Assembly (NCBI RefSeq): GCF_020180945.1
Contig: NZ_JAIPUL010000001.1
Location: forward strand, 1,240,001 to 1,304,000
Length of the DNA: 64,000 bases
Direction of reading: 5' to 3'
Origin: Lacticaseibacillus kribbianus
GTDB taxonomy: Bacteria > Bacillota > Bacilli > Lactobacillales > Lactobacillaceae
Part shown: piece after piece, positions 7,612 to 58,796 of the stretch
Layout: every line of letters starts with the position of its first letter
Position numbering within the stretch: the stretch's first letter is position 1
Position numbers and translations under genes: made by a program
Notes under the pieces: generated by a model
Told to the model about the DNA's origin: nothing
What the model saw: the letters and a program-made list of their open reading frames with translations, nothing else
Databases searched by the model: none

Positions 7612-7731
7612 CCAGAGTGCAGCAAGGCGCTCTTAGCCGGCCGGCTAGCGTAGGCTTGGGGCTTGGACCGCACTTTGGCCCGAGCGCCAAGCCTAGCTAG
7701 ATGAGCCGGCGTTGCCTTGCGTAGCTCGACG
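7612..7731 (+). repeat. 120-bp extragenic palindrome, copy 1
   Basis: It starts with CCAGAGTGCAGC and ends with GTAGCTCGACG. Arms pair in order: GCAAGGC with GCCTTGC, AGCCGG with CCGGC, TAGGCTTGG with CCAAGCCTA. The tip contains GCACTTTGG. It directly follows the 6S RNA terminator and abuts copy 2. Confidence 0.8.
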
Positions 7732-7732
7732 T

Positions 7733-7851
7733 CCAGAGCGAAGCGGGGTGCACTTAGGCCACCGGCCAGCGTAAGGCAAGTGCTTGGGCGCACTTTGCCC
7801 CGAGCGCTTGCCTTAGCTGGACGAGTGGCCGCTACCCCGCATAGCTCGACG
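7733..7851 (+). repeat. 120-bp extragenic palindrome, copy 2
   Basis: End boxes CCAGAGCGAAGC and ATAGCTCGACG match copy 1, but the stems differ with pairing kept: GCGGGGT with ACCCCGC, GGCCAC with GTGGCC, TAAGGCAAG with CTTGCCTTA. A 21-base start of a third unit (ATCAGAGCGAAGC) follows at 7852. Confidence 0.8.
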
Positions 7852-7934
7852 ATCAGAGCGAAGCTTGACGCCTGGCCGCCGCCCTTCCCCCACCGCGTGG
7901 CGGCGTGTACAATGAGGCTATCGAACCGGAAAGG

Positions 7935-8219
7935 ATGACCGTCTTGATTACCGTTGTTTTTATCGTCTTTGCCCTCCTTCAGCTCGGGCTGGGCTACTAC
8001 CTCCTGGCGCACCGGCGCGCCAACTTCCTGAACCTCGCTGAGGTGCCCGCCGCGCTTGGCCGCGAGCTGACCGGGTTTGCCGTCGGGTTCGGCGCCAGCG
8101 CCCTCGTCAGCCTGGTCGCCGCCTTCGTGTCGACCACCGTCTTGCAGCTGATCGCGCTGGTGCTGGCGGCCGTCATCGCGGGCCTGCTGGGGCTTCGCGT
8201 GCCGAAATACCTGCGCTAG
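7935..8219 (+). CDS. Small integral membrane protein of the usp operon
   Basis: About 94 residues with three hydrophobic stretches: VVFIVFALLQLGLGYYLLA, a second beginning near GFAVGFGASALVSLVAAF, and LQLIALVLAAVIAGLLGL. It ends in RVPKYLR. I do not recognise a named family. The start is uncertain: the ATG at 7935 directly abuts GGAAAGG, whereas a TTG at 7944 has ideal 9-base spacing from it. The in-frame start at 7905 is unlikely, since it lies within a probable -10 region (TACAAT). The gene lies 54 bases before usp, the arrangement described for lactic acid bacterial usp operons behind 6S/Lacto-usp RNA. Confidence 0.7.
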   Translation: MTVLITVVFIVFALLQLGLGYYLLAHRRANFLNLAEVPAALGRELTGFAVGFGASALVSLVAAFVSTTVLQLIALVLAAVIAGLLGLRVPKYLR

Positions 8220-8273
8220 AGACTGGCAGTGCGCACCTCAATCGAGTACAATAAAAGGAGAGAGGTGATTGAC

Positions 8274-8768
8274 ATGTTACAACAATACCAACACATTCTA
8301 GTCGCGATCGACGGGTCCTACGAGTCCGAGCTGGCCTTCCAAAAGGCCGTTGCAGTCGCCAAGCGCAACCACAGTGAACTGTTCTTGATTCACATTGTCG
8401 ACACCCGCGCTTTCCAAAACGTGTCCAGCTTCGACTCCGCCATGGTCGAGCAGGTCACCGAAACCGCCAAGCAGACCATGGACGGCTACATCGACCAGGC
8501 CCACAAGGCGGGGCTAGAGAACGTTTCGTACAGCATCGAGTACGGCGCGCCCAAGACCATCATCGCCCGTGACATTCCCAAGGCCAAGAGCATCGATCTG
8601 ATCATGATCGGCGCCACCGGGCTGAACGCCGTCGAGCGCCTTTTGATTGGGAGCGTGACCGAGTACGTCACGCGCAACGCCCTTTGCGACGTGCTCGTTG
8701 TGCGCACCGACCTCAACAACAAGCCGGCCCTGGCCTCCACCAAAAAGCCGAAGCCGCCAGTCAAATAA
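8274..8768 (+). CDS. Universal stress protein, UspA family
   Basis: A 164-residue cytosolic protein with the Usp fold. ILVAIDGSYESELAFQKA is at the N-terminus, and the ATP-binding motif G-x2-G-x9-G-S is present as GATGLNAVERLLIGSVTEYV, followed by the closing strand CDVLVVRT. Usp proteins bind ATP and help survival under stress. The start ATG at 8274 has the strong site AAAGGAGAGAGGTG; TACAAT at 8247 is a candidate -10 for an extra promoter. The tail after residue 148 (PALASTKKPKPPVK) is an uncharged-then-basic extension beyond the domain. Confidence 0.9.
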   Translation: MLQQYQHILVAIDGSYESELAFQKAVAVAKRNHSELFLIHIVDTRAFQNVSSFDSAMVEQVTETAKQTMDGYIDQAHKAGLENVSYSIEYGAPKTIIARDIPKAKSIDLIMIGATGLNAVERLLIGSVTEYVTRNALCDVLVVRTDLNNKPALASTKKPKPPVK

Positions 8769-8774
8769 CTCAAC

Positions 8775-8799
8775 AAGTCAGGCCGCGGCCTGGCTTTTG
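8775..8799 (+). terminator. Terminator after usp
   Basis: CAGGCC (8779-8784) pairs with GGCCTG (8787-8792), with A residues before and CTTTT after. It lies 10 bases behind the usp stop. Confidence 0.65.
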
Positions 8800-8822
8800 T
8801 TCACCCAGAAAGAGGGATTCCC

Positions 8823-9299
8823 ATGAGTATCTACGATTTCACCGCAACGCTTGAGGACGGCACCACCTACTCGCTGGCCAAGTACCGCGGCCGGCCAATG
8901 ATCATCGTCAACACCGCCACCAAGTGCGGCTTCGCCCCGCAGTTCGAGTCGCTTGAGAAGCTGTACCAGACCTACAAGGACCAGGGGCTGATCGTCCTCG
9001 GCTTCCCGTCCGACCAGTTCCACCAGGAGCTTGACTCAAGCACTGCGGCGGCCGAGGCCTGCCGGACCACCTGGGGCGTCACCTTCCCGATGCACGAGCT
9101 CCTGAAGGTCAACGGCCCGGACACCGACCCGCTGTTCGCCTACCTCAAGCAGGCGGCGCCGGGCGCCATGGGCACCAGCGTGAAGTGGAACTTCACCAAG
9201 TTCCTGGTCGACAAGGCCGGCAACGTGGTCGCCCGCGTGGCGCCCAAGACCGACCCGCTCAAGATGGTGCCGGAGCTCGAGCGCGTCTTGGCCGAGTAG
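8823..9299 (+). CDS. Glutathione peroxidase-type thiol peroxidase
   Basis: The 158 residues carry the peroxidase tetrad: Cys35 in NTATKCGFAPQF, Gln65 in GFPSDQF, and Trp122 and Asn123 in VKWNFTKFLVD. The active residue is cysteine, not selenocysteine. Bacterial members reduce hydroperoxides, often with thioredoxin rather than glutathione. The motif usually written FPCNQFG is FPSDQFH here, so the first Cys of that loop is absent; Cys80 (AEACRTTW) could be the resolving residue. The start ATG at 8823 has AAAGAGGG upstream. It is a single gene between terminators. Confidence 0.9.
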   Translation: MSIYDFTATLEDGTTYSLAKYRGRPMIIVNTATKCGFAPQFESLEKLYQTYKDQGLIVLGFPSDQFHQELDSSTAAAEACRTTWGVTFPMHELLKVNGPDTDPLFAYLKQAAPGAMGTSVKWNFTKFLVDKAGNVVARVAPKTDPLKMVPELERVLAE

Positions 9300-9342
9300 C
9301 ACCGCAAGACGAGTCGTGCCCCTCAATGACACCGAAACACAA

Positions 9343-9374
9343 AACGGCGTGGCCCCAACCGGGGTCACGCCGTT
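9343..9374 (-). terminator. Terminator of the Rgg-like regulator gene
   Basis: A 14-bp stem with one mismatch (9343-9356 with 9361-9374) is followed on the minus strand by TTTTGTGTTT. It lies 11 bases beyond the regulator's stop codon and also separates it from the convergent peroxidase gene. Confidence 0.8.
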
Positions 9375-9384
9375 CTCGTCTCCT

Positions 9385-10251
9385 TCAGGCGCTGATCGGA
9401 TCGGCCTCGAGGGCCTCAATCAGCCGCGCGCTTTGCGTCACGCGGGCGAGCGCCAGGGCAATCTGGTAGGCTTGCGGAGCGGCGGCGTCGCCGATGCGCA
9501 CCAGGGCGCGGGCGCGCAGCGCGTAGAACTCATCGAGCAGAAACAGGCTGTCGTTTTTCACCGCGCTGTCGATGCCGATCTTGACGTGCTGAAGCACCAG
9601 CTGGTCCTCGCCCAGCTCGTAGTAGATGCGCGCGACGTGCCAGTGAATCGTCAGTTCGATGTCGAGGTAGCGCCCCTCGGCCAGCGGCATCGTCTCCAGC
9701 AGCTGAAGCGCGGAGTCGATGTACACCCGGGCGCGCTCGGTGGTGCCCTTCTCGGCGTAGGCCAGCCCCAGCCCAAGCGTCGCCATGATCGCCGGCAGGT
9801 CCTTGAGCGTGGCGGCGAGCGGGTTCAGCACCCGCCCGAAGTAGTAGATCGCCTCGTCCTGGTTCTGAACCAAAAACAGCTGAACCATCCCCATCGCGTA
9901 GTAGTACCGGCGCTCGTCCTCCACCCTAAGCGACTTCGGACTCTTGATGGTCGCAAGCTTGGCGTCCGCCTGGGCGAAGTCGCCGTGGCGCACCAGGGTG
10001 TCGACCTGGGCCAGCGTACGCTGGACCCGCGTGCGATTCTCGACCACGATGTCCTCCAGGGTGATGCCCAGCCGGTCGATCAGCCGCAGCAGAATGTTCA
10101 TGCTGGGCACCTTGTTGCGCTTCTCGATCAGGCTGATGGTGGCCTGCGTGCAGATCCCGTTGGCCAGCTCGGCCTGGGAGAGGCCCTTGAGCTTGCGGTA
10201 GTGACGGACCCGTTCCCCCAGGATCCGTAGGGCCGGTTGCGAATTTTTCAT
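9385..10251 (-). CDS. Rgg/PlcR-like HTH-TPR regulator
   Basis: An N-terminal Xre-type helix-turn-helix (about residues 8-65: LGERVRHYRKLKGLSQAELA, then ATISLIEKRNKVPSM) is followed by about 220 residues of helical TPR-like repeats, the layout of RNPP regulators (Rgg, PlcR) that bind short signal peptides. Length (288 residues) is normal. The start at 10251 has AAAGGAG 9 bases upstream. The IS1380-bounded EPS block begins only 59 bases upstream of this start, so its promoter region may be affected by that insertion. No partner peptide gene is visible in the remaining 59 bases. Confidence 0.85.
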   Translation of the reverse strand: MKNSQPALRILGERVRHYRKLKGLSQAELANGICTQATISLIEKRNKVPSMNILLRLIDRLGITLEDIVVENRTRVQRTLAQVDTLVRHGDFAQADAKLATIKSPKSLRVEDERRYYYAMGMVQLFLVQNQDEAIYYFGRVLNPLAATLKDLPAIMATLGLGLAYAEKGTTERARVYIDSALQLLETMPLAEGRYLDIELTIHWHVARIYYELGEDQLVLQHVKIGIDSAVKNDSLFLLDEFYALRARALVRIGDAAAPQAYQIALALARVTQSARLIEALEADPISA

Positions 10252-10305
10252 TGTCTAACACTCCTTTGGCGGCTCCCGCCGTGCCGGTGGTGCGGTCATT
10301 TCAAT

Positions 10306-10310
10306 GTTTA
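10306..10310. repeat. GTTTA, left outer flank of the IS1380-bounded block
   Basis: The five bases before the left IS1380 copy are GTTTA, and the five after the right copy (43589-43593) are also GTTTA. The inner flanks (TTCAT and ATAAA) do not match anything. This is what a target duplication of a composite transposon would leave. Confidence 0.6.
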
Positions 10311-11932
10311 CCTGGATTATTCATAGAATTTCAAAAAAGCAGCGCAATCCCATGATTCACACGGGACTGCGCTGCTTTGGTGTTTCACCCATTGGGTGCG
10401 CCTATATGCTAAGGTTGAGTCGATGAAAACCATCACGAAAGCGAGGCTTCACACCATCTCAACTTTAACCAGCTTATCCCTGCAATGCAATACCAATGTG
10501 ACTATGACCGCCGACGGCGGTCAACTTTCAAATGACGCCGGGCTCGTTTTGTTCCAAGAGTTTCTTCATCGTATCAACTTTAGGCAACTTGCCAATCAGT
10601 GCCTCAAGTTACCAGACCAACGACGATTCTGGAAGGCCTCGATGATCGACATCTTCTTGGAAAAATTGTTGCTCGACGTTGCCGGGTATTTACATGACAG
10701 TAGTGCCAATGACTGGCAACGTGATCCCGTACTGGCGGCCACCTTGGGTAGCTCTCGGCTAGTCTCACAGCCCTCACTTTCACGGTTTTTCAAGCGCCTT
10801 GAAGACGCCGACCTAGATGACTTTCGGAAGCTTATCTGGCAAGTAGCCGCCTTGGCTTTCCGTCTTAGTGGTCAATCCCGCTTCGTGCTGGATATAGACT
10901 CAACGCATTGTGATACTTTCGGTAATCAAGAACGGTCCGCCTTCAACGCTCACTATATGGCCTATGGATATCATCCTCAGGTTGTATTTGATCAAGAGTC
11001 CGGGTTGCTCTTAGACGCCTTGATGCGCCCTGGCAATGAGTACACCGGCAAGGAAGCCGATAAGTTCGTCGAGACAACTTTTTCGCGCCTATCGGCGCTC
11101 CCTCAAAGCACCAGCGTCATCATTCGAGGCGATTCGGGGTTTGCTGCGCCAAAATTTTACGAGATGTGCGACACACATGGCGTCGACTTTTTGGTTCGAC
11201 TCAAGGCAAATTCAAAGCTTGGGAAGCTGGCAGAAACGGCCTTAGTGGATTGCCCTCCAAAATATGAAGAGAGCAAATGCGTCTACCACGAATTCAAGTA
11301 TCAGGCCGCGTCATGGGGTAAAGCTCGCCGTGTTATCGTATGTTCTACTCATACGGCAGATGAGCTAGTTCCCTGGAACCACGCATTCGTAGTGACCAGC
11401 CTGGCCTCCGAGGCTCCAGAGACTTTGTTCAAGACCTATAGACAGCGGGGCAATGCTGAGAACCAAATTAAGGAGCTGAAATGCGGGTTTGGCTTTGACA
11501 AAACAGACAGCTCAACTTTTGCACGGAACACTGCACGAGCCTTGATCACCGGTATTGCCTATAACCTGGTTCAGCTCTTTAAACAGCTCTTTGTCTCGGA
11601 AGACCGTCGTTCAACCATCTCCTCGCTACGGTTCAGTCTCTTTCACATCGCCGGTAGGATTACTTGGCACGCCCGTCGTGTGGTGATTCATCTTGCTTCT
11701 AACTATGTTTACAAGAACTGGTTTAGTCGGCTCATGGACGAAGTCCATCAGTTGGCGACCTGAACTGAATAACTGAATAGGTCGTGCGTCGAGCCGAAAC
11801 CTGGGTCGGTCTGTTCGTGGTGCATCGATCACCAACTTCTCCGCTCAGTCAGTATTCGCAACGCTCCAAACGTTGCTTTCAGACCGGCCAGATGCGATTT
11901 CATGTCCCAAATACCGAGGTGAATAATCCAGG
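10311..11932 (+). mobile_element. IS1380-family insertion sequence, copy 1 (1622 bp)
   Basis: The terminal inverted repeat CCTGGATTATTCA is perfect for 13 bases at both ends. The element encodes one DDE transposase. Inside the left end, a hairpin (AGCAGCGCA...TGCGCTGCT, about 10336-10374) followed by TT probably blocks incoming transcription. Copy 2 at 41967-43588 has the same length and orientation and differs at only a few positions. Confidence 0.9.
10423..11763 (+). CDS. IS1380-family transposase, copy 1
   Basis: The open frame runs from a GTG at 10396, but the ATG at 10423 (446 residues) has AAGG upstream and is the better start here. DDE-type residues are visible in VLDIDSTHCDTFGN, VIIRGDSGFAAPKF and GNAENQIKELKCGFGFDKTD, with YRQRGNAENQ typical of IS1380 enzymes. 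It should cut and join the 13-bp ends. The frame is intact. Compared with copy 2 it has Met instead of Thr at this start codon, Met for Val at the TMTADGG position, and Arg for His in WGKARRV. Confidence 0.9.
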   Translation: MKTITKARLHTISTLTSLSLQCNTNVTMTADGGQLSNDAGLVLFQEFLHRINFRQLANQCLKLPDQRRFWKASMIDIFLEKLLLDVAGYLHDSSANDWQRDPVLAATLGSSRLVSQPSLSRFFKRLEDADLDDFRKLIWQVAALAFRLSGQSRFVLDIDSTHCDTFGNQERSAFNAHYMAYGYHPQVVFDQESGLLLDALMRPGNEYTGKEADKFVETTFSRLSALPQSTSVIIRGDSGFAAPKFYEMCDTHGVDFLVRLKANSKLGKLAETALVDCPPKYEESKCVYHEFKYQAASWGKARRVIVCSTHTADELVPWNHAFVVTSLASEAPETLFKTYRQRGNAENQIKELKCGFGFDKTDSSTFARNTARALITGIAYNLVQLFKQLFVSEDRRSTISSLRFSLFHIAGRITWHARRVVIHLASNYVYKNWFSRLMDEVHQLAT

Positions 11933-11933
11933 T

Positions 11934-12449
11934 TCATAATGACCTCACATCATAGGCGTAAATCACTTTGTCTGTTTTAGGCGACGCGACCGAGATCTCC
12001 CGATACTGCTTGCTGACGGCCGGCCCATGTAGTTTTGACCACTTGACCGGCGCCAGCTTATCGATTTTTCTGAGCGCGATCTCATCTGACTGATTGAGTG
12101 CGAAGAGTGAATCGGATACCGGCTGCTGCCGAAGCTCTTTTTCTATCGTCAGCACGTTCCGATTCGTCATGCCCAAGATCGCCCGAACGACCTGCTGCTT
12201 ATCATCGGAGTCCTTCAAGTTATCGAGCTGTCTTCTAAGTTGACTATAAGTGCTCCCGATCTTACCTTCATCATGTTTTGAATAGATGGCATGCAGATAC
12301 TGCGTGTTAAACTCGTTGTCCGCCGCATCAGGCTCAGCTTGAATCAGTGCTTTAAGCTGATCTGCCACACGGATAATGTTCATATACAGCTGGTGCGACT
12401 GCTCCTGCATCGGCTCACTATACTGACGCACAACATCAAACGACTCCAT
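11934..12449 (-). CDS. Hypothetical protein cut short next to the IS element
   Basis: I do not recognise the family. It is a 171-residue, charged, mostly helical protein (for example LRRQLDNLKDSDDKQQ) without membrane segments. Its stop codon lies only 1 base from the IS1380 end, so the C-terminus has probably been replaced or truncated by the insertion. The start is either the ATG at 12449, 10 bases behind AAAGGTGG, or a GTG at 12455. Base composition is clearly lower in GC than the EPS regulatory genes to the right. Confidence 0.5.
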   Translation of the reverse strand: MESFDVVRQYSEPMQEQSHQLYMNIIRVADQLKALIQAEPDAADNEFNTQYLHAIYSKHDEGKIGSTYSQLRRQLDNLKDSDDKQQVVRAILGMTNRNVLTIEKELRQQPVSDSLFALNQSDEIALRKIDKLAPVKWSKLHGPAVSKQYREISVASPKTDKVIYAYDVRSL

Positions 12450-12455
12450 TAACAC

Positions 12456-12735
12456 TTCACCACCTTTACTAAGCGTTCAGAAAAAACGACCTGGTTTACA
12501 AATCAGCTGATCCAAAAATCAGGTTTGCTCATACCACCGTAAGTTTACCGGCTGCCGCTCAAATGTGTCAAGTAACCTGATTTTATTTTGCACAACCTTC
12601 GTGCTTGCGCCAATACGTGACCGCTACCCGCAGCACCCATTTCCTAGTCACCGCGCCTCACGCACACCGCCCCCTGGCCTCGACCGCGAACAAAATCGAA
12701 CGATCACGTTTTTTGCAATCGTTCGATCTGTGACG
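12456..12735. other. Non-coding spacer with a perfect 10-bp inverted repeat
   Basis: I see no convincing gene. ATCGAACGAT (12695-12704) and ATCGTTCGAT (12718-12727) form a perfect 10-bp inverted repeat around a T-rich 13-base loop. This could be a second terminator or an operator. Confidence 0.5.
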
Positions 12736-12785
12736 AAAAAACCGCCCGCCCGGCGTCCTCACGATCGAGAACGCCAGGCGAGCGG
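12736..12785 (-). terminator. Terminator of the EPS operon
   Basis: On the minus strand a 15-bp stem with some G-T pairs (12742-12756 with 12771-12785) is followed by TTTTTTC. It lies just beyond the stop of the tyrosine kinase gene, the last gene of the EPS run. Confidence 0.8.
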
Positions 12786-12795
12786 CAAGCAGCGA

Positions 12796-13548
12796 TCAGC
12801 GCTTCTTCTTCGCGTCGCTGCTGTAGTAGGCGTCGTAGTAGTAGCCGTAGCGCGTGTGACGCTCGGTTTCCGGGACGCGGGTCATGACAACGCCGATGAT
12901 GTTGGCGTCGACCTTGGTCAGGAGGTCCTTGGCCTCTGCCACCATCGCCTTTTGCGCGATGCCGAACGGAGCGACCAGGATGGTCGCATCCGCGCGGGAG
13001 GCGACGATCTGGGCGTCGGTCACGGACAGGACCGGCGGCGCGTCCAGGATCACGAGGTCGAAGGCGCCGGTGACCGCCTGCAGCAGGCGCCCCATGCGCT
13101 TGCTGGCGAGCAGCTCGGACGGGTTCGGCGGGATCGGGCCGGACGGCAGGGCGAAGAGGTTCTCGACGCTGGTCTTCTGGCAGGCGCGCTGCAGCAGCTC
13201 GTTGTCCTCATCCCCCGTCAGCAGGTCGACCAGGCCGACGTTGTTCTGCAGGCCGAACGTCGCGTGGACGCTGGGGCGGCGCATGTCGGCGTCGATGATC
13301 AGCGTGCGGCGGCCCGCCTGCGCGAAGGTGACGGCGACGTTGCCGGAGACGGTGGACTTGCTTTCGCTCGGCCCGGCCGAGGTGAAGACCAGGGTGCGGA
13401 TCGGGTCGTCGGCCTTGGCGTACTGGATGTTCGTGCGCAGCGTGCGGTACTCCTCGGAGACGCGGCTGGTCGGGTCGTAATCGGTGATCAGCGCGACCCC
13501 GTTGCGCAGGCTTTCGCTAGATAGGGTGTTCTTTCGTCTGAAAATCAT
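12796..13548 (-). CDS. EPS tyrosine autokinase (CpsD/Wze/YwqD type)
   Basis: A 250-residue BY-kinase with the usual elements: EEYRTLRTNIQYA, a P-loop, Walker A' LIIDADMRRP, Walker B LVILDAPPVL, and a C-terminal tyrosine cluster RYGYYYDAYY that is autophosphorylated. It works with the CpsC-like membrane partner encoded just upstream (12-base gap) to control polymer length and export. The P-loop reads SAGPSESKST, so the glycine normally before the Lys (GK) is Ser. If real, this could weaken ATP binding. The start at 13548 has GGAGGGAA upstream. Confidence 0.9.
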   Translation of the reverse strand: MIFRRKNTLSSESLRNGVALITDYDPTSRVSEEYRTLRTNIQYAKADDPIRTLVFTSAGPSESKSTVSGNVAVTFAQAGRRTLIIDADMRRPSVHATFGLQNNVGLVDLLTGDEDNELLQRACQKTSVENLFALPSGPIPPNPSELLASKRMGRLLQAVTGAFDLVILDAPPVLSVTDAQIVASRADATILVAPFGIAQKAMVAEAKDLLTKVDANIIGVVMTRVPETERHTRYGYYYDAYYSSDAKKKR

Positions 13549-13559
13549 CTTGTTCCCTC

Positions 13560-14309
13560 CTATCGCCGGCTGCGCGACTTGCGGCCCTGGATCTGACCGG
13601 TGCGGCTGGCCCCGAGCTTCATGTCCTGGGTGTCGATCTCGGAGATCGAGCCCAAGAGCGGCAGGTCCAGCGCGTCCTCAACGAAGGCCGGCTCCCGCAC
13701 CGTTTTATCCGTCAGCTCGCGGATGAAGGCGACCAGGACGCCGAGCACGAGCCCGGCGAGCAGGCCCACGGCGATGTTGATCTTCGGGCGCGGGCTGACC
13801 GGCGCCTTCTCCAGCGTCCCTTCCGCCACGATCGACACGTTCTTGGCGTTGGCCATGATCGTTGTGATCTTGGTCTGGAACACCTTCACCACCTCGTTGG
13901 CGATGGCGCGCGCCAGGTACGGGTCCTTGGCCGTCGCGGTGACCTTGACCACCTGCGAGTTCTCGTTGTTCGACAGCGAGATCGCACTGGCCAGGTCATC
14001 CTGCGGCACGAAGCCGTTCTTGTGCAGGTTCTTCTTCACCTGGTTCAGCACCACGCTCTGGGTGATGATGTCCTTGTAGGTGTTGATCATCTGCAGGTCG
14101 GTCTGGATCTGGTTGTACTGCATCGCGCTGTCGCTGGTGCTCTTCTGGTTGACCAGCATCAGCGAGCTGGACTGGTACTGCGGGGTCATGACGAAATAGG
14201 TCGCCCCCGTCGCCAGGATGCCGCCCAGCCCCATCATGATCAGGATCAGCGCCAGGTGCTTCTTGAGGATCGCGAAGATCTGGCTCAGGTTGATTACGTC
14301 GTCGTCCAT
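13560..14309 (-). CDS. Wzz/CpsC-type chain-length regulator
   Basis: A 249-residue polysaccharide co-polymerase. It has a cytoplasmic N-terminus (DDDVINLSQIFAILKKH), a first membrane helix (LALILIMMGLGGILATGA), a long outside loop, then the Pro-rich APVSPRPKINIAVG motif and a second membrane helix (LLAGLVLGVLVAFI) leading to a basic tail. It partners the CpsD kinase, whose gene follows. GGAGGAACCTA precedes the start. No kinase domain is fused, as usual in Firmicutes. Confidence 0.9.
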   Translation of the reverse strand: MDDDVINLSQIFAILKKHLALILIMMGLGGILATGATYFVMTPQYQSSSLMLVNQKSTSDSAMQYNQIQTDLQMINTYKDIITQSVVLNQVKKNLHKNGFVPQDDLASAISLSNNENSQVVKVTATAKDPYLARAIANEVVKVFQTKITTIMANAKNVSIVAEGTLEKAPVSPRPKINIAVGLLAGLVLGVLVAFIRELTDKTVREPAFVEDALDLPLLGSISEIDTQDMKLGASRTGQIQGRKSRSRR

Positions 14310-14403
14310 TAGGTTCCTCCAATTACGAATCTCACGTGTCTTGGGCCGCCCTGCGTCGCCGGCGGTCGGCTGGTGCGCGCTGACCGCCGGCGCCAGCGAG
14401 TGG

Positions 14404-19818: not shown

Positions 19819-19941
19819 CGTCGAGCTGCAGCGCACAACGGGGAAGCAGCTAGCTACGCCAAGTCGCCGAGCCCCAAAGCCCGGGGCTCAACGCCTCGGC
19901 TAGGCTACCTGTTCCCCTAAGCCCGTGCGCTTCCGCTCTGG
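19819..19941 (-). repeat. 120-bp extragenic palindrome, copy 3
   Basis: On the minus strand it begins CCAGAGCGGAAGC and ends GCAGCTCGACG, the same end boxes as the copies at 7.6-7.9 kb. Stems AAGCGCAC with GTGCGCT, GGGGAA with TTCCCC and GCCGAG with CTCGGC are all different from the other copies yet paired. It ends one base short of the fcl stop codon. Confidence 0.75.
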
Positions 19942-19942: not shown

Positions 19943-20887
19943 CTACCGTTCCGCCCGCATCGGGTTGGCCAAGAAGTCCTGGTAGGCTAAGCGGATGCCG
20001 TCGTCGAGCTCGGTCTGGTAGGTCCAGCCGAGGTCGGCGGCCTTGGAGACGTCGAGTAGCTTGCGCGGGGTGCCGTTCGGCTTGCTGGTGTCCCACTCGA
20101 TCTTGCCGGTGTAGCCGATGATCTCGGCCACTTTTTCCGTCAGGGCCTTGATGGTCAGCTCCTTGCCAGTGCCGGCGTTGACCGTCTCGTTGCCACTGTA
20201 ATTGTTCATCAGGAACACGCAGAGGTTGGCGAGGTCGTCGACGTACATGAATTCACGCAGCGGGCTGCCGTCGCCCCAGCAGGTGACGGTGTCGAGGCCC
20301 TGCTGCTTGGCCTCGTGGAAGCGGCGGATCAGCGCCGGCAGCACGTGGCTGTGCGTCGGGTGGTAGTTGTCGTTCGGGCCGTAGAGGTTGGTCGGCATCA
20401 CGGAGATGTAGTCCGTGCCGTACTGGCGGTTGAGGTACTCGCAGTACTTCAGCCCGGAGATCTTGGCCAGGGCGTACGCCTCGTTGGTCTCCTCCAGCGC
20501 GCTGGTCAGCAGCGAGCTTTCCTGGATCGGCTGCGGCGCCAGGCGCGGGTAGATGCAGCTGGAGCCGAGGAATTCGAGCTTCTTGACCCCGTTGGCCCAG
20601 GCTTCGTGGATCACGTTCATCTGCATGATCATGTTGTCGTACATGAAGTCCGCCAGCGCCTCTTGGTTGGCGACGATCCCGCCGACCTTAGCCGCGGCGA
20701 GAAAAACGTAATCGGGCTTCTCGGCGGCGAAGAAGGCTTCAACATCGGCCTGCCGCTGCAGGTCCAGCTCCGCGTGCGTGCGGGTGATCAGGTTCGTGTA
20801 CCCCTGGCGCTTCAGCTCGCGCACGATCGCGGAGCCCACCATCCCGCGGTGACCGGCAACATAGATCTTGGCATCTTTTTCCATCAT
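19943..20887 (-). CDS. fcl: GDP-L-fucose synthase
   Basis: A 314-residue short-chain dehydrogenase/epimerase. It has the NAD(P) motif GHRGMVGS, LAAAKVGGI, FLGSSCIYP with the catalytic Ser, and YALAKISGLKYCE with the YxxxK pair, followed by MPTNLYGPNDNYHP, typical of Fcl/WcaG. It converts GDP-4-keto-6-deoxymannose to GDP-fucose by epimerisation and reduction. The upstream gene is gmd (27-base gap), which makes its substrate. Two adjacent ATGs (20887 and 20884) are possible starts. Confidence 0.94.
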   Translation of the reverse strand: MMEKDAKIYVAGHRGMVGSAIVRELKRQGYTNLITRTHAELDLQRQADVEAFFAAEKPDYVFLAAAKVGGIVANQEALADFMYDNMIMQMNVIHEAWANGVKKLEFLGSSCIYPRLAPQPIQESSLLTSALEETNEAYALAKISGLKYCEYLNRQYGTDYISVMPTNLYGPNDNYHPTHSHVLPALIRRFHEAKQQGLDTVTCWGDGSPLREFMYVDDLANLCVFLMNNYSGNETVNAGTGKELTIKALTEKVAEIIGYTGKIEWDTSKPNGTPRKLLDVSKAADLGWTYQTELDDGIRLAYQDFLANPMRAER

Positions 20888-47900: not shown

Positions 47901-47905
47901 ACAAG

Positions 47906-50475: not shown

Positions 50476-50486
50476 CCGTAAGATAC

Positions 50487-51742: not shown

Positions 51743-51776
51743 TGGGTCCAGGCTTTTGGGAAAATCCACTGGGCCG

Positions 51777-53117: not shown

Positions 53118-53145
53118 CAGATTGAAGACTCCTTCTAAAAGTGGG

Positions 53146-53511
53146 TTAGTTGCGGAAGCCAAAGCCCTGCGTCGGGAAGTTGCTCCCGCCGGCGTTCAGG
53201 CGGCCCTGGTTCATCAGCTCGTCGCGCAGCATCCGCCGCACCGCCGAATCGCTGGTCTCGGCCTCGTGGCGCGGGTGCTTGAGGCGCCGAATGTCGGCCA
53301 GGCTGAACCCGGCGGCGAGCTGTGAGCGGATGTCGAGCAGGTCGTCGACGTCGTTCAGGGCATACAGCCGGTGGTTCCCCTGGCTTCGAACGGGGTGAAT
53401 CAAGTCCTGCGCCTCGTAGTACCGAATCTGGCGGGCGGTCAGGTCGGTCAAGGCGATCACTGTACCAATCGGCAGAACGGGGCGGGTGCGCAAATCGCTG
53501 ATCTCGGTCAT
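53146..53511 (-). CDS. glnR: Nitrogen regulator GlnR (MerR family)
   Basis: A 121-residue MerR-type repressor with the winged helix [40 protein letters not shown], and the C-terminal tail typical of GlnR that senses feedback-inhibited glutamine synthetase. It represses its own operon through the box found upstream at 53574-53590. The tail ends in QGFGFRN. Confidence 0.95.
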
Positions 53512-53537
53512 GACATGGCTCCCTTCATCACCGGTTC

Positions 53538-53566
53538 AGTCTACCAATGCCCCTCCCCCTTGTCAA
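53538..53566 (-). promoter_or_regulatory. glnRA promoter
   Basis: On the minus strand TTGACA (53566-53561) and TAGACT (53543-53538) are 17 bases apart. The start point would fall about 20 bases before glnR. Confidence 0.75.
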
Positions 53567-53573
53567 CGGTGTG

Positions 53574-53590
53574 TGTCAGATTAGCTGACA
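53574..53590 (-). promoter_or_regulatory. GlnR operator
   Basis: TGTCAGATTAGCTGACA fits the TGTNA-N7-TNACA GlnR/TnrA box exactly. It stands 7 bases upstream of the -35 element of the glnRA promoter. Confidence 0.85.
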
Positions 53591-53682
53591 GACTTTTTAA
53601 CGTTCGGATTTACGTAGACCAATGCCGGTCGCGGTGCCCTGGTCAGCGGTACGTCAGGTGGCTGCCGCGGCCTTCGCGACGC

Positions 53683-53710
53683 AAAAACTCCCGGGCCACA
53701 GCCCGGGAGT
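53683..53710 (-). terminator. Terminator of the ynbB-like gene
   Basis: ACTCCCGGGC (53687-53696) pairs perfectly with GCCCGGGAGT (53701-53710), with TTTTTGC following on the minus strand. Confidence 0.85.
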
Positions 53711-53715
53711 GCGTG

Positions 53716-54972
53716 CTACTTGTTGAAGAACGTGGCCTGCGCCGCGCCGATGATGCCAAGGCGCACGTGCGCGTAGGTTAGCCCGCCCTGGATGTACAGG
53801 GTGTAAGGCTCACGCAGCGGGCCGTCGGCGGAGAATTCGATGGTCGAGCCGGACACGAAGTTGCCGGCGGCCATGACCACCTTGTCCTCGTAGCCGGTCA
53901 TCTCGGACGGCTCCGGGGTGACGAAGGCGTCGACCGGCGAGTTCTCCTGCACGGCCTTGGTGAAGGCAACCATGTCCGTCGGGTTGCCGAAGTTGACCGT
54001 CTGGATCAGGTCGGTGCGCGGCGCGTCCCACTTCGGGGACACGGCGAGGCCGAGGCGCTCGAGCAGCGCGGCCTCAAAAATCGCGCCCTTGATCGCGTTC
54101 CCGGTGACGGAAGGCGCGAGGAAGAAGCCCTCGTACATATCGAACAGGTTGCTGCCGGTGGCCCCTTCCGCCGGGCCGATGCCCGGCACGGTCATGCGGT
54201 AGGACACGCGCTCGACTAGGTCCTTGCGCCCGACGATGTAGCCGCCGGTCTTGGCGATGCCACCGCCGGCGTTTTTGATCAGGGAGCCCGCCATCAGGTC
54301 CGCGCCGACGTCCAGCGGCTCGAGGGTCTCGGAGAACTCGCCGTACGCGTTGTCGACGAAAATCCACATGTCAGGCGCCACTTCGCGCACCGCGTCGACC
54401 ATCTCCTTGATCTTGGCCACGGTGAAGGAGTCGCGGGTCGCGTAGCCGCGCGAGCGCTGGATGCAGACCACCTTGGTCTCCGGCCGGATGCGGGCCTTGA
54501 TCGCCTCAAGGTCGGCCGACCCGTCCGCCTTCAGCGGCACGTAATCGCAGTTGATGCCGTACTCCTTGGCGCTGCCGATACCGTTGCCGGCCATGCCCAG
54601 CACCTGCTGCAGCGTGTCGTAGGGCTCGCCGGTGATGTAGAGCAGCTCGTCGCCGGGCCGCACCAGGCCGAGCTCGGCCACGCCGATGGTGTGCGTGCCG
54701 GAGACGAACTGCGGGCGCACCAGCGCGTCCTCGCCGCCTAGCACCTGGGCGTAGATGGCCTCCAGGGTGTCGCGGCCCATGTCGTCATCGCCGTAGCCCG
54801 TGGTGCCCAGCAGGCTGTTTTCCGCCACGTGGTTGTCGCGGTAAGCCGTCAGCACCTTGGCCTGGTTGTCCATGATCTGCTCGTCAATCTCCGCCAGCCG
54901 CGGCGCAATCTGCCGGTCGACGTCCTCGACCAGCGCAATCAGCTTGGGATCGTACTCATCTTTCCAACTCAA
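53716..54972 (-). CDS. YnbB-like PLP enzyme (methionine gamma-lyase family)
   Basis: The 418-residue protein belongs to the YnbB/aluminium-resistance group of fold-type I PLP enzymes: FVSGTHTIGVAELGLVRPGD, VVCIQRSRGYATRDSFTV, IFVDNAYGEFSE with the cofactor Asp, and AGSLIKNAGGGIAKTGGY with the Schiff-base Lys. The reaction is not established for this group. The start is a TTG at 54972, placed by AAAGGAG, and overlaps the miaA stop (TTGA), so translation is coupled. The miaA-ynbB-glnR-glnA order is conserved in Firmicutes. Confidence 0.88.
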   Translation of the reverse strand: MSWKDEYDPKLIALVEDVDRQIAPRLAEIDEQIMDNQAKVLTAYRDNHVAENSLLGTTGYGDDDMGRDTLEAIYAQVLGGEDALVRPQFVSGTHTIGVAELGLVRPGDELLYITGEPYDTLQQVLGMAGNGIGSAKEYGINCDYVPLKADGSADLEAIKARIRPETKVVCIQRSRGYATRDSFTVAKIKEMVDAVREVAPDMWIFVDNAYGEFSETLEPLDVGADLMAGSLIKNAGGGIAKTGGYIVGRKDLVERVSYRMTVPGIGPAEGATGSNLFDMYEGFFLAPSVTGNAIKGAIFEAALLERLGLAVSPKWDAPRTDLIQTVNFGNPTDMVAFTKAVQENSPVDAFVTPEPSEMTGYEDKVVMAAGNFVSGSTIEFSADGPLREPYTLYIQGGLTYAHVRLGIIGAAQATFFNK

Positions 54973-55910
54973 TGCTTGTTCTCCTTTGTCTGCCACGAGG
55001 CGACCAGCGCCTCGATGTCTCTAAGTTCCTCTGGGTGTGCCACCAGGTCGAACCAGTGCGTCGGCATCTGGTGGCGAAAATACGTGAGCTGCCGCTTGGC
55101 GTAGCGCCGCGAGTTCTGTTTGACCGCCGCCACCGCCGTTTCAAGGTCGCCCCGCCCTTCCAGGTACGGCACGAACTCCTTGTAGCCGATGGCCTTGAGC
55201 GCCTGGGCGTCCGGTCCGGCCGCATCAAGCACCCGGCGCACCTCGGCCAACAGCCCCGCGTCGAGCATCGCGTCGACGCGGGCGTTGATCCGATCGTACA
55301 GCGCCGCGCGCTCGGTGGTCAGGCCGAGCACCAGCGCGTCGTAGGCGGGTTCTGGCTGAACCTGCGCGGAAAAAAGCTGGCCCGAGGCCACAACCTCAAG
55401 CGCCCGCATCACGCGCCGCGCGTTGCCGACGGGAATCGCGGCGGCCGCCGCGGGGTCGACCGCCGCAAGTCGTGCGTGCAGCGCCTCCGGGCCAAGCGCG
55501 GCCAGCTCCTCGCGCAGCGCCTGGCGCCTGGCATCGGGCGGCGCCGCCCCACCCAGGTTCAGCCCCAGGCGAAGGGCGTTGAGGTAAAAGCCGGTGCCGC
55601 CGACCACGATCGGCAGGTGGCCGCGCGCCCGCACCGCATGAATGGCGGCCGCCGCGCGGGCCTGAAACTGGGCCGCGGAGAACGGTGTGCCGGGAACCAC
55701 GATGTCGATCAGGTGGTGCGGCACCCCGGCCATCTCTTCGGCCGTGACCTTGGCCGTGCCGATGTCCATGCCGGTGTAGATCTGGTAGGCGTCGCCGTTG
55801 ATCACCTCGCCGGAAAAGCGCTTGGCCACGGCGACGGCCAGCGCGCTTTTGCCCGTCGCGGTGGGGCCGCCGATGATCAAAATTTGGGGTTTCACTGTCT
55901 CATAGTTCAT
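54969..55910 (-). CDS. miaA: tRNA dimethylallyltransferase
   Basis: A 313-residue enzyme that adds an isopentenyl group to A37 of tRNAs reading UNN codons. It has the P-loop GGPTATGKSALAVAVAK (residues 14-30), NGDAYQIYTGMDIGTAK, PHHLIDIV, and VGGTGFYLNALRLGL, with the later NSRRYAKRQLTYFRHQ. Length is normal. The ribosome site (TGGTGATGAA) is weak. It is the first gene of the miaA-ynbB unit and is divergent from the DUF3042 gene. Confidence 0.95.
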   Translation of the reverse strand: MNYETVKPQILIIGGPTATGKSALAVAVAKRFSGEVINGDAYQIYTGMDIGTAKVTAEEMAGVPHHLIDIVVPGTPFSAAQFQARAAAAIHAVRARGHLPIVVGGTGFYLNALRLGLNLGGAAPPDARRQALREELAALGPEALHARLAAVDPAAAAAIPVGNARRVMRALEVVASGQLFSAQVQPEPAYDALVLGLTTERAALYDRINARVDAMLDAGLLAEVRRVLDAAGPDAQALKAIGYKEFVPYLEGRGDLETAVAAVKQNSRRYAKRQLTYFRHQMPTHWFDLVAHPEELRDIEALVASWQTKENKH

Positions 55911-55997
55911 TTCATCACCAGCTTCTAGTATACTGAATGTGGCACCTAAGTTCTACCAAACCCGCGGATTGCCGCAGGAATGAAAAGAGGGATCTTT

Positions 55998-56177
55998 ATG
56001 AAGCACAAATTCATCACGGGCTTCTTGTTCGGGGTCATCGCAACCGCCGGCGCCGTTGCCGGCAGCGTTGTTGCCTTCAAGAAATCCTACATCGAACCGG
56101 TCGAAGACAAGGTCGAGGAGATCAACGCGAACCGCCGCAAGGCCAACCGCAAGCGCCACGGCGCACACATGGGCTAA
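55998..56177 (+). CDS. DUF3042 small membrane-associated protein
   Basis: The 59 residues match the DUF3042 pattern of lactic acid bacteria: a single hydrophobic helix (FITGFLFGVIATAGAVAGSV) followed by AFKKSYIEPVEDKVEEI and a basic end. Function is unknown. The ATG at 55998 has AGAGGGA upstream; the frame upstream (MKRGIF) overlaps that site and is discarded. It is a single gene between miaA and a terminator. Confidence 0.85.
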   Translation: MKHKFITGFLFGVIATAGAVAGSVVAFKKSYIEPVEDKVEEINANRRKANRKRHGAHMG

Positions 56178-56186
56178 GCCCCAACC

Positions 56187-56217
56187 AAAAACGCCGACCA
56201 TCGCGGTCGGCGTTTTT
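56187..56217. terminator. Bidirectional terminator
   Basis: AAAAACGCCGACC (56187-56199) pairs perfectly with GGTCGGCGTTTTT (56205-56217). It serves the DUF3042 gene and the convergent rhodanese-like gene. Confidence 0.88.
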
Positions 56218-56219
56218 GC

Positions 56220-56627
56220 TTACTCTGAAATCTTCTTGGCCTTGGTCTTGCCGGACCAGTTGTCGTAGCCGCCCTTGAGGAAGAACAGCTGCGTGAAGCC
56301 GGCCTTCTTCATCCGCGTGGCCGCGCGAACGGACATCTGGCCGGTCAGGTCGTACATGTACACCGGCAGGTCCTTGCGCAGCTCGCCCATGCGGGTCTTC
56401 AGGACCGTGTACGGCAGGTTGCGCGCGCCGAGCACGTGGCCGGCGTCGAAGTCCTTCTTCTCGCGCAGGTCGATGATCTGCGCCTTGCGCATCGTTTTTT
56501 CGAATTCCTCGGGTGCAAGCTCCCCGCCGACGGACTTCAGCCGCGACTTCTGGAAGGCCCCGATGCCCCATGATGCGGCCCAGACAATGAGCCCCGCACC
56601 CAGTAAAATAACCAGAAATTGAATCAC
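56220..56627 (-). CDS. Membrane-anchored rhodanese-like protein without active cysteine
   Basis: The 135-residue protein has an N-terminal helix (FLVILLGAGLIVWAASWGIG) and a rhodanese domain (AQIIDLREKKDFDAGHVLGA, then KAGFTQLFFLKGGYDNWSGK). The active-site loop reads YMYDLTGQMSVRAA; the catalytic Cys expected at its start is missing, so sulfur transfer is unlikely and a binding or regulatory role is more probable. It is encoded 22 bases after glcK in a conserved cluster. Confidence 0.85.
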   Translation of the reverse strand: MIQFLVILLGAGLIVWAASWGIGAFQKSRLKSVGGELAPEEFEKTMRKAQIIDLREKKDFDAGHVLGARNLPYTVLKTRMGELRKDLPVYMYDLTGQMSVRAATRMKKAGFTQLFFLKGGYDNWSGKTKAKKISE

Positions 56628-56649
56628 AAGATCGCCCCTTAATTACGTA

Positions 56650-57606
56650 TTAACGTGCCAAGCTGGCCGCTCCGATGACGCCAGCCGTGTTGCCCAAGGT
56701 CGCCAGCCGCAGGTGCGTCGTGTTGCGCACGTTCGGGAAGACGAAGGACTGGAAGTACTGGTTGACCCGGGAGAGCAGGAAGTCGCCGGCCGCGCTGACG
56801 CCGCCGCCGATCAGAATGTACTCCGGGTTGAGCATGTTGCCCAGGTTGCCCAGGCCAAGACCCAGGTAGAAGGCCACCTTGTCCACAATCATCAGTGCCA
56901 GCTTGTCGCCTTCCTGGGCGCAGTCGAACACGATCTTGGACGAGATGTCGTCGCCGTTGTCGAGGATTTGCTTGAGCGTGGAGTCGCCCGCGTACTCCTC
57001 GGCCATGTCGCGCGCCACGCGCACGACGCCGGTGGCGCTGGCCACGGTCTCAAGGCAGCCTTTCTTGCCGCAGGTGCACATGTAGCCGTCCGGATCGACG
57101 GTCACGTGGCCGATCTCACCGGCGGAGCCGGCCGTCCCGTGCAGCAACAGGCCGTCGGCGATGATGCCGCCGCCGATGCCGGTGCCGAGGGCCACCAGCG
57201 TCACGTTCTTGGACTTGTCGCCGGCGCCCTTCCACTGCTCGCCCATCGCCGCCACGTTGACGTCGTTGTCGATGCTGAACGGAATCCCGGTTGCGGCCTC
57301 GATGTCGCGCTTCGGGTGTTGGAGCGTTTTCCAGTTCAGGTTGTAGGCGCCGATGACCGTGCCGGCCTCCGTGTCGACCGTGCCCGGCGTGCCCATGCCG
57401 ATGCCGTTGAAGTCTTCCGGCTTCATGTTGTACAGCTTCAGGTGGTCGTTAATGGATTCGATGATGTCGGGGATGATGTGGCGCCCCTCGTCCAAAATGT
57501 TGGTGTCGATGCTCCAGCGCTGCTGAATCTCGCCCTCCGCGGTTAAAATGGCGAACTTGCAGGTCGTCCCGCCCAAGTCTACGCCGATCAGCTTCTTGTC
57601 AGTCAT
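56650..57606 (-). CDS. glcK: Glucokinase, ROK family
   Basis: A 318-residue ROK kinase phosphorylating glucose at C6. It has the ATP phosphate loop GVDLGGTTCKFAIL, GIGMGTPGTVD, the catalytic SIDNDVNVAAMGEQW, GTGIGGGIIADG, and the zinc motif CTCGKKGCLETVAS. It overlaps the upstream yqgQ gene by 8 bases, showing tight coupling in the rhomboid-yqgQ-glcK-rhodanese unit. Confidence 0.95.
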   Translation of the reverse strand: MTDKKLIGVDLGGTTCKFAILTAEGEIQQRWSIDTNILDEGRHIIPDIIESINDHLKLYNMKPEDFNGIGMGTPGTVDTEAGTVIGAYNLNWKTLQHPKRDIEAATGIPFSIDNDVNVAAMGEQWKGAGDKSKNVTLVALGTGIGGGIIADGLLLHGTAGSAGEIGHVTVDPDGYMCTCGKKGCLETVASATGVVRVARDMAEEYAGDSTLKQILDNGDDISSKIVFDCAQEGDKLALMIVDKVAFYLGLGLGNLGNMLNPEYILIGGGVSAAGDFLLSRVNQYFQSFVFPNVRNTTHLRLATLGNTAGVIGAASLAR

Positions 57607-57832
57607 CAGTTTTTCCTCCGTCAGGTTGAATTAAGGGGTGTTTCAGCTCCTGCTCGTGCGCGTGGCGCAGCACGATTTTGGCCGTTGCGTACAGCTTGTC
57701 GTCAATCAGGCCGGTCTCGTGCAGCCGGTCGACCTCCACGGCGGCAAGCTCCATGTCCCAGAGCCGCTTGCCCACGTGGATGTAGGTGCCGTAGCGCTTG
57801 AGCAGCTGCAGGACGTCGTAGTAGGTCTTCAT
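57599..57832 (-). CDS. yqgQ: YqgQ-like protein (DUF910)
   Basis: The 77-residue protein begins MKTYYDVLQLLKRYGTYIHV and continues RLWDMELAAVEVDRLHETGL, the DUF910/YqgQ pattern of about 70 residues. Members may bind single-stranded nucleic acid; the role is unclear. The start at 57832 matches the family's N-terminus; ATG 57844, which overlaps the rhomboid stop, is an alternative. Gene order rhomboid-yqgQ-glcK is conserved in Firmicutes. Confidence 0.88.
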   Translation of the reverse strand: MKTYYDVLQLLKRYGTYIHVGKRLWDMELAAVEVDRLHETGLIDDKLYATAKIVLRHAHEQELKHPLIQPDGGKTDD

Positions 57833-57836
57833 CTCG

Positions 57837-58514
57837 TCATGCATAGCCGAACCCCACACCGAGCAGCAACACCAGCGCCGCGGCGAGCACCACCCCGCCG
57901 ATCACGCGGCGGCTGGTGGGCGTCGGGCCAAGCTGCGGGGCGCCGACCGCAAAGGCGATCAGCACGCCGCCGACCAGGCCGCCGATGTGCCCGAAGATGT
58001 CCACGCCGCTTGAGAACAGGTTGAACACCAGGTTCATCGCCGCCAACAGCATGAACTGCCGCGACAGCTGCGTGATCACCGGGTTGTGCCGGTAGGTGTC
58101 CCCGAGCATCAGGAAGGCGCCCATCAGCCCAAAAATCGCGGTCGACGCGCCGGCGGCCAGGCCGTCGGCGTTGAACACGAAGCTCGCGACGTTGCCGGCG
58201 ATGCCCGACACCAGGTAGATCACCAGGTAGCGCCAGTGGCCGAAGATTCGCTCGGTGATCGAGCCGAGGTAAAACAGCGACACCGCGTTGACCACGATGT
58301 GCGTGACGCCGATGTGCACGAACATCGGCGTGATCAGCCGCCACCACTGCCCGATGTAAATCAGCGGGTTCCAGCGCGCGCCGAAGCGCAGCAGCACAAA
58401 GCTGTTGGTGGAGCCGCCGGCCAGCGTCTCCAGCAGGAACACGGCAATCGTCACCCCAAGCAGAATGTAGGTCACGAACGGTGTGTCGTCTAATCTTCGC
58501 CAAGTGCGCTGCAT
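57837..58514 (-). CDS. Rhomboid-family intramembrane serine protease
   Basis: The 225-residue membrane protein has six or seven helices and the rhomboid residues: HIVVNAVSLFYLG (Asn and His of helix 2), the nucleophile Ser in AGASTAIFGLMGA (GxS), and the catalytic His in VDIFGHIGGLVGG. It cleaves membrane proteins within the bilayer. AAAGGAGGG places the ATG at 58514 rather than 58532. It is the first gene of its cluster; the 5-formyl-THF ligase gene often found upstream is replaced by repeats here. Confidence 0.92.
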   Translation of the reverse strand: MQRTWRRLDDTPFVTYILLGVTIAVFLLETLAGGSTNSFVLLRFGARWNPLIYIGQWWRLITPMFVHIGVTHIVVNAVSLFYLGSITERIFGHWRYLVIYLVSGIAGNVASFVFNADGLAAGASTAIFGLMGAFLMLGDTYRHNPVITQLSRQFMLLAAMNLVFNLFSSGVDIFGHIGGLVGGVLIAFAVGAPQLGPTPTSRRVIGGVVLAAALVLLLGVGFGYA

Positions 58515-58548
58515 GGCACCCTCCTTTGACAATCACAGTCACGCACAA

Positions 58549-58577
58549 CGCCCCGTCACGGTCACCCGGACGGGGCG
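58549..58577 (-). promoter_or_regulatory. GC-rich hairpin in the leader of the rhomboid operon
   Basis: CGCCCCGTC (58549-58557) pairs perfectly with GACGGGGCG (58569-58577), 35 bases before the start codon. There is no T-run on the minus strand, so it could be a leader structure or the relic of a terminator. Confidence 0.45.
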
Positions 58578-58677
58578 CTGCCACCCCCGCAAGCGGGAGC
58601 CAAAACTTATCCCCTACAACTGGTCAGTCCAGTTATCCCTTACAGTGTAGCATTTTTTGAATGCGCTGCCTAGTAAA

Positions 58678-58796
58678 CCAGGGCGGAGCAAGGCGGGTTT
58701 AGCGAGACACATAGCGTGACCTGATGCGTGAGGCGCACTTGGCCTCGCGTGTCGGGTCTCGCTATGTGGCCTCGCGTCGCCTTGCGGAGCCCGACG
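58678..58796 (+). repeat. 120-bp extragenic palindrome, copy 4
   Basis: It begins CCAGGGCGGAGC and ends GGAGCCCGACG. Stems: GCAAGGCG with CGCCTTGC, GCGAG with CTCGC, CACATAGCG with CGCTATGTG. The tip has GCACTTGG. The start of a fifth, incomplete unit follows at 58799 (CCAGGGCGGAGAAGC) and runs into the 201-bp element. Confidence 0.8.

Follow-up and report, generated by a model that had tools for sequence, protein, structure and literature searches.

A probably mobile family of covarying hairpin repeats at gene 3′ ends in Lacticaseibacillus kribbianus and other Lactobacillaceae

Hairpin elements in the window

The window, meaning the whole stretch of DNA analysed here, comprises 64,000 nt of Lacticaseibacillus kribbianus (GCF_020180945.1, NZ_JAIPUL010000001.1:1,240,001-1,304,000). 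It carries four complete copies and several truncated pieces of a hairpin element of ~120 bases. These belong to a large repeat family, found throughout the 2.79 Mb L. kribbianus genome and in related species, whose fold is maintained by selection, whose strands are not equivalent, and whose members stand at the 3′ ends of genes or directly behind one another. The copies in the window are as follows.

7612-7731, + strand: complete hairpin element, first in a two-copy array, directly past the terminator of a putative 6S RNA
7733-7851, + strand: complete hairpin element, second in the same array, one-base spacer after the 7612-7731 copy
7852-7872, + strand: truncated 5′ piece closing the 7612 array, identified by eye (scored "internal" by the fragment script)
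19819-19941, − strand: complete element, starting one base past the TAG of a GDP-L-fucose synthase frame (19943-20887)
58678-58796, + strand: complete element, by model match and fold
58799-58829, + strand: truncated 5′ piece closing the 58678 array, identified by eye
1220-1254, + strand: lone truncated 5′ piece, right behind a stop codon

The original prediction, made from the letters of the window, had placed all four complete copies on these strands and had noted 5′ fragments at ~1220, 7852 and 58799. The fragments are present, and our model R1 recovers the four copies, each on its own strand, at 95.5-119.1 bits; R1 otherwise matches the window only once, weakly (24.8 bits), on the reverse strand of the 7733 copy. 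A common start had also been proposed. This holds for three of the four copies, which begin with CCAGRGYGNAGC, and fails for the 19819 copy, which begins with CCAGAGCGGAAGC. The wording of a shared tip and end needed small corrections, as both the tips (GCACTTTGG, GCACTTTGC, GGGCTTTGG and GCACTTGGC) and the last bases (CGTAGCTCGACG, CATAGCTCGACG, GCAGCTCGACG and CGGAGCCCGACG) vary among the four. At the 7612 element, the junction runs from the T-run of the terminator through GTGT into CCAG. Folding of the sense strand against shuffled sequences gives z scores of -6.6, -9.4, -6.4 and -9.5 for the four copies, with 0 of 200 shuffles as stable in each case.

Fold, covariation and strand polarity

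We aligned 66 copies from the L. kribbianus genome, after one spurious regular-expression match and three identical duplicates had been dropped. Standard pairs make up 95.7% of the paired cells, and 27 of the 38 pairs show compensatory change. In all, 430 cells are changed on both sides, compared with 137 (standard deviation 14) in shuffled alignments, none of which reaches 430 in 500 trials; sliding the partners by 1-3 columns leaves at most 87 compensatory cells. A second alignment, of 49 copies from several species, tells the same story, with 92.9% standard pairs, compensatory change at 33 of 38 pairs, and 432 doubly changed cells versus 125 when shuffled and at most 112 when slid. Thus, the covariation persists with more members, and the proposal that the folded form is selected, originally drawn from the window copies, is borne out. 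Even the outermost bases covary: of 150 copies, 122 have C-G and 23 have A-T at their two ends, and position 5 and its partner are G-C in 107, A-T in 36 and G-T in 5.

Set within these variable stems are unpaired positions that hardly change, namely T22, T23 and A24 (97-99%), G59 (100%), C62, T63 and T64 (93-97%), and C116 and G117 (100%). Asymmetric bulges and loops are likewise conserved.

The two strands differ in a way that points to the form in which the fold matters. The consensus structure of the sense strand, relative to the upstream gene, contains 542 G·U cells against 53 A·C cells; for the structure derived from the opposite strand, the numbers are 48 and 79. Of 150 copies, 146 also fold more stably as the sense strand. 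Such a bias is not expected of a symmetric cruciform, so the G·U excess on one strand implies that RNA or a single DNA strand is the relevant form. Of the two options offered at the outset, RNA or cruciform, the polarity favors the first, widened to any single-stranded sense fold (RNA or single-stranded DNA), over the second.

Copy number and distribution

With a single copy as query, blastn gives 56 matches in the L. kribbianus genome, and a covariance model built from the 66 distinct copies gives at least 150, all with E values of 4e-14 or better, grouped in 87 clusters of one to five. The family is therefore not confined to the window. Counting 19 further full copies behind array ends and two window copies outside the 150, the total comes to ~170 or more. 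Length is tightly held, with 101 of the 150 matches exactly 120 bases long (range 118-123), and 147 of the 150 are distinct.

R1 matches 26 of 30 Lacticaseibacillus genomes, L. kribbianus included, and 1 of 30 others. Copy number within the genus is very uneven, from 0 to at least 60, with R1 counts of 123 in the metagenome-assembled genome LACCAS3, 121 in L. suibinensis, 71 in L. daqingensis, 35 in L. porcinae and 11 in L. songhuajiangensis. For orientation, RarA identity with L. kribbianus is 90% in L. daqingensis and 82-85% in L. porcinae, L. suibinensis and L. songhuajiangensis. A broader model, R2, finds matches in 65 of 301 Lactobacillaceae genomes, representing 14 of 40 genera (Lacticaseibacillus included). 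In a set of 24 named genomes, R2 matches seven: Latilactobacillus fuchuensis (48 copies), Lactiplantibacillus herbarum (24), Loigolactobacillus backii (10), Companilactobacillus keshanensis (4), Secundilactobacillus kimchicus (3), S. silagei (3) and Periweissella ghanensis (3). Drawing 246 genomes from across the order yields nine with matches; two of the nine belong to another family of the order and have three copies each. Scoring had a ceiling per genome, of 150 matches for the L. kribbianus count and for both sets of named genomes, 60 for the 30-genome genus survey, 11 for the 301 Lactobacillaceae genomes and 14 for the order-wide draw, and all copy numbers are to be read as lower bounds.

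Phage records and plasmid records searched with one Lacticaseibacillus copy and one Lactiplantibacillus herbarum copy gave no match; a plasmid search with a Latilactobacillus fuchuensis copy gave one weak partial match, to a Latilactobacillus curvatus record. A pattern scan of viral contigs returned five stretches with one match each, which we take as chance.

Placement at gene ends and array structure

We classified the 150 L. kribbianus copies by what lies immediately upstream. Another element directly precedes 84, a terminator T-tract precedes 35, and a stop codon (element start between -2 and +3 relative to the stop, open frames of 100 codons or more) precedes 20, leaving 11 others; these numbers vary somewhat by script, a second version giving 76, 38, 18 and 18 for the same classes. 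Among 20,000 random positions in the same sequence, just 124 (0.6%) fall in the terminator class and 356 (1.8%) in the stop-codon class. The test is built such that copies in both of these classes necessarily share the orientation of the upstream gene. Similar placement is seen in other genera under a looser rule applied without a random control, with heads at stop codons in 17 of 34 cases in Latilactobacillus fuchuensis, 11 of 21 in Lactiplantibacillus herbarum and 2 of 10 in Loigolactobacillus backii. In these three species, the first bases of the element may themselves complete the stop codon.

Arrays run head to tail with spacers of ~1-6 bases, and they often end in a broken copy. Behind 93 array-end elements, the next match is a scored 5′ fragment in 46, a full copy in 19, an "internal" fragment in 20 and a "3-prime" fragment in 8; about nine of the 20 "internal" matches start with a CCAG-like sequence, by eye.

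Several side observations concern the arrays. The copy at C4:48425 (contig C4) looks chimeric by eye: its 5′ arm matches that of its neighbor, and its 3′ arm would find its pairing partner in the truncated copy that comes next, which suggests unequal recombination inside arrays. A subfamily with other ends (AGAGGGCG...CCCGTTT) occurs in L. kribbianus, for example at C4:251914, C4:258605 and C7:34629, and by eye arrays seem to keep one end type. In L. daqingensis (L070:5208-5440), an element is followed by AAGACCGGAAAG. This tail is seen again after other copies (L048, L149) and may be an additional repeat particular to the species.

Gain, loss and dispersal

The genome of a sister species, G010, is 90% and 78% identical to that of L. 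kribbianus over two blocks, and array flanks are mostly 80-96% identical. Behind the 6S locus, G010 has the same terminator through TTTTTTTGTGTC and no element. At C4:245507, the two genomes share the position of the stop codon, and G010 again has no element. Altogether, eight heads could be compared, of which three are occupied and five empty in G010, a ratio that leans towards presence because the G010 regions were partly picked around G010 elements; emptiness at one of these sites, C4:60398, is judged from flank letters and the lack of a model match only. Two of the three occupied orthologous arrays hold clearly different copies, and at C5:317832 the first copies are nearly identical. The G010 sequence at the 58678 site has diverged and gives a weak match (27.7 bits, L237), so a degenerate copy there is possible. 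Within L. kribbianus, near-identical copies with 4-5 differences lie on separate contigs (C1/C7, C4/C5 and C5/C7). Dispersed near-identical copies, together with sister sites that are empty or differently filled, indicate dispersal and turnover. Mobility is thus likely, and these comparisons of sequence are consistent with transposition.

Candidate mobilizing enzymes

Profile searches ruled out four classes of enzyme as movers in the L. kribbianus genome. There were 0 candidates for the Y1/RAYT transposase (PF01797) and 0 for reverse transcriptase (RVT_1, PF00078). Y1 matches occur in 10 of 22 other genus genomes tested, with none in G001, G010 and G013, which each have at least 52 scored copies; RVT_1 occurs in 7 of 18 other genus genomes, and is not found in G001, G010 or G012. 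The Y2 HUH transposase (PF04986) has 0 matches in L. kribbianus and 18 other genus genomes, and in 0 of 14 controls. The integron integrase profile TIGR02249 scores over its curated cut-off in 0 of 31 genomes; its matches below the cut-off appear in all 31 genomes and all 14 controls, and we read them as general tyrosine recombinases. Taken together, these negatives imply that a mover, if there is one, lies outside these families, has been lost here, or is encoded by the host. Among families of open reading frames that recur near arrays, the largest overlaps the elements themselves by coordinates.

Interpretation

We slightly favor reading the elements as mobile, non-autonomous hairpins that form a replicator family resembling REPINs or MITEs and targeting the 3′ ends of genes. 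In such a family, the sense strand of each ~120-base copy would fold as one long hairpin bearing invariant single-stranded marks: the UUA bulge in GCG-NN-CUUAG, a tip of the GNACUUUG type, and both ends. A trans-acting factor may read this fold, such that only foldable copies keep spreading. That would explain why the stems covary while the marks stay fixed. New copies would enter immediately behind a gene's 3′ end, whether at its stop codon or beyond the terminator T-tract, and further copies would enter immediately behind an existing element, building the head-to-tail arrays in an order that we infer. Insertion would lack precision at its downstream end, so that the last copy would often be truncated. 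Both the route of insertion and the factor that reads the fold are suppositions of this scheme. A more specific version, which we put forward as improbable, is a replicator addressed by message ends. Here, the folded sense strand would be inserted where the mRNA ends (terminator) or where translation ends (stop codon). The route might involve transcripts, R-loops or stalled ribosomes, the enzyme would belong to none of the Y1, Y2, reverse-transcriptase and integron classes, and the replicator would have spread through the Lactobacillaceae.

A number of observations weigh against the favored reading. No enzyme of the four classes was found in the L. kribbianus genome, and by eye the flanks of 69 copies show no consistent target duplication. 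Y1 matches do occur in the high-copy genomes G014, G015, G020 and G021, and given the presence of Y1 and RVT_1 in relatives, the wider family may use such an enzyme or may once have done so. Sequence past the elements is rarely conserved in G010, making loss there as possible as gain here; the dispersed near-identical copies could stem from ectopic gene conversion; and insertion is deduced, not directly observed. Placement is also imperfect. The script left 11 of the 66 heads unclassified (by eye, five of them have a terminator T-run and one lies near a stop codon), and 28 of the 93 array-end elements are followed by neither a scored 5′ fragment nor a full copy. Finally, R1 has no match in 4 of 29 other genus genomes, and R2 has none in 17 of the 24 named genomes, including Enterococcus cecorum, Listeria cornellensis, two Limosilactobacillus and Lentilactobacillus hilgardii.

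The main rival is a function for the host. It is possible, at perhaps half the likelihood of mobile hairpins, that the elements are useful RNA modules in which the hairpin shields mRNA 3′ ends or stops read-through, with selection on host genes keeping the fold. The RNA-like strand polarity fits this account, as does the sense orientation of the terminator and stop-codon heads to their upstream genes. Moreover, in 8 of the 18 stop-codon cases listed, inspection by eye shows a terminator beyond the array, such that the array would be transcribed. On the other hand, 35 of the 66 heads come after a terminator, in DNA that should be little transcribed, five of the eight comparable sites are empty in the sister species, and copy number is very uneven among species.

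It is far less probable that the matched arms arise without selection, through templated arm-to-arm correction (hairpin-mediated template switching), a process that the original prediction had also entertained and that would yield matched arms in every copy. One-step correction predicts that paired changes appear at once. Yet 17 copy pairs with 1-4 differences show 0 compensatory doubles and one non-compensatory double, alongside 23 single changes at paired sites (12 keeping a wobble and 11 breaking the pair) and 19 unpaired changes. Three compensatory doubles appear in the 12 copy pairs with 5-8 differences, versus 35 wobble or breaking singles, and doubles exceed paired-site singles only from ~21 differences on; copy pairs in this analysis share history and are not independent. 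Because the youngest pairs carry single rather than compensatory changes, selection, and not instant copying of one arm to the other, keeps the fold, and the templated process finds no support in its strong form. Copying of arms would also erase the conserved asymmetric bulges and loops and the wobble bias of one strand.

Equally doubtful is a relation to integron attC sites, single-stranded DNA hairpins behind stop codons that are moved by a tyrosine recombinase. These have an outer stem, an internal loop, an inner stem, extrahelical bases and a variable tip, and are of similar size. The likeness in size and layout, and the position right behind stop codons, are set against the lack of RYYYAAC/GTTRRRY core boxes in the first and last 25 bases of 150 copies (0 of 150), the absence of an integrase over the cut-off in the 31 genomes, and the fact that no gene cassettes lie between the copies of an array.

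Least probable of all is that these hairpins at gene ends are ordinary intrinsic terminators or their remnants: the 1220-1254 remnant is now a short hairpin (by eye) followed by TTTTT and so terminator-like, but TTTT occurs in the last 30 bases of 0 of 150 copies, 35 heads are already past a terminator and the architecture is conserved over 120 bases, which refutes plain terminators for complete copies.

Relation to known repeats

The original prediction recognized no named family, and this still stands for Rfam (the window and five other loci) and for the literature searched. Rfam 15 reports only a tRNA above gathering score in the window. Under permissive settings, five other loci and window positions 7300-7900 give tRNA, miRNA rows far below gathering, and a sub-threshold sraL in the 6S region.

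REPINs, REP doublets that form hairpins and are associated with RAYT transposases, are among the closest in kind. According to passages of PMC3116915, they have conserved flanks and a less conserved middle kept paired by compensatory changes. Like the elements described here, they are non-autonomous extragenic hairpins of high copy number that are partly clustered. The L. kribbianus elements carry no REP tags, and the genome has no RAYT. They also differ in forming head-to-tail arrays that keep a single polarity, in their precise position at stop codons and terminators, in their asymmetric conserved bulge and in occurring in Lactobacillaceae. A REPIN has two REP units in inverted orientation with a constant GTAG-type tag; by eye, no such tag is present in two alignments at the element ends, which are CCAG/CGACG and variants on one continuous hairpin. 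CGTC REPs, in passages of PMC3733652, have tails that mostly fit CCA and no dedicated transposase known. There are parallels here, in that our elements end in CGACG (CGTC on the other strand), carry a CCA tag and lack a transposase. They are, however, 120 rather than 20-40 bases long, that is, three to six times longer; their CCA is at the sense-strand start, unlike the published arrangement; and other ends (AGAG...CGTTT, ACAG...CGACT) occur as well.

An extract of PMC3049150 describes pneumococcal BOX elements as modular (A-B-C) with variable internal copy number, and RUP as MITE-like. BOX, RUP and SPRITE resemble the present family as Firmicute extragenic repeats with strong RNA-like folds, and differ in that the extract describes no such stop-codon or terminator placement for them.

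Group IIC introns insert in the sense orientation downstream of intrinsic terminators, much as we see here. Their hallmarks are otherwise missing, as the L. kribbianus genome has no reverse transcriptase, the elements have no intron fold, and many copies lie at stop codons.

We therefore file the family as a new variety of extragenic hairpin repeat, outside REPINs and CGTC REPs as these are characterized in the passages cited. The data suggest that such a high-copy repeat family of lactic acid bacteria, with its textbook covariation, is a small mobile or regulatory element of an undescribed kind; its placement at stop codons and terminators is sharper than those passages describe for REP-type repeats. 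Should the family prove mobile, culturable lactobacilli would be a place to look for its mover; should it prove functional, it would be a widespread 3′-end RNA that may set the fate of mRNAs.

Other features of the window

7390-7611 (ends approximate), + strand: putative 6S RNA locus with its own intrinsic terminator, between rarA and uspA
58856-59064 (+ strand) and 59372-59580 (− strand): inverted pair of a second repeat, flanking 307 bases

The first of these probably encodes 6S RNA, judging by synteny only: the locus is flanked by rarA (6045-7313) and Usp (8229-8768), the rule being taken from passages of PMC8414754. Rfam gives no 6S match at this locus, permissive threshold included.

The second repeat is ~210 bases long with a branched consensus fold; we aligned 10 copies, two of them in the window. 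It also occurs beside arrays on L. kribbianus contigs C1, C4, C5 and C6. Seven copies start ~30-140 bases behind a hairpin array on the same strand, and two lie 102-157 bases from an array in the opposite orientation, an association that is biased because the repeat was sought only around arrays.

Two open frames, 59437-61692 (751 aa) and 57829-58584 (251 aa), have no Pfam/NCBIfam match and may not be genes. Between 24001 and 44000, G+C content is 42-52% per 4 kb, compared with 58-68% elsewhere in the window, and this stretch, which lies beside nucleotide-sugar genes, is perhaps an acquired block.

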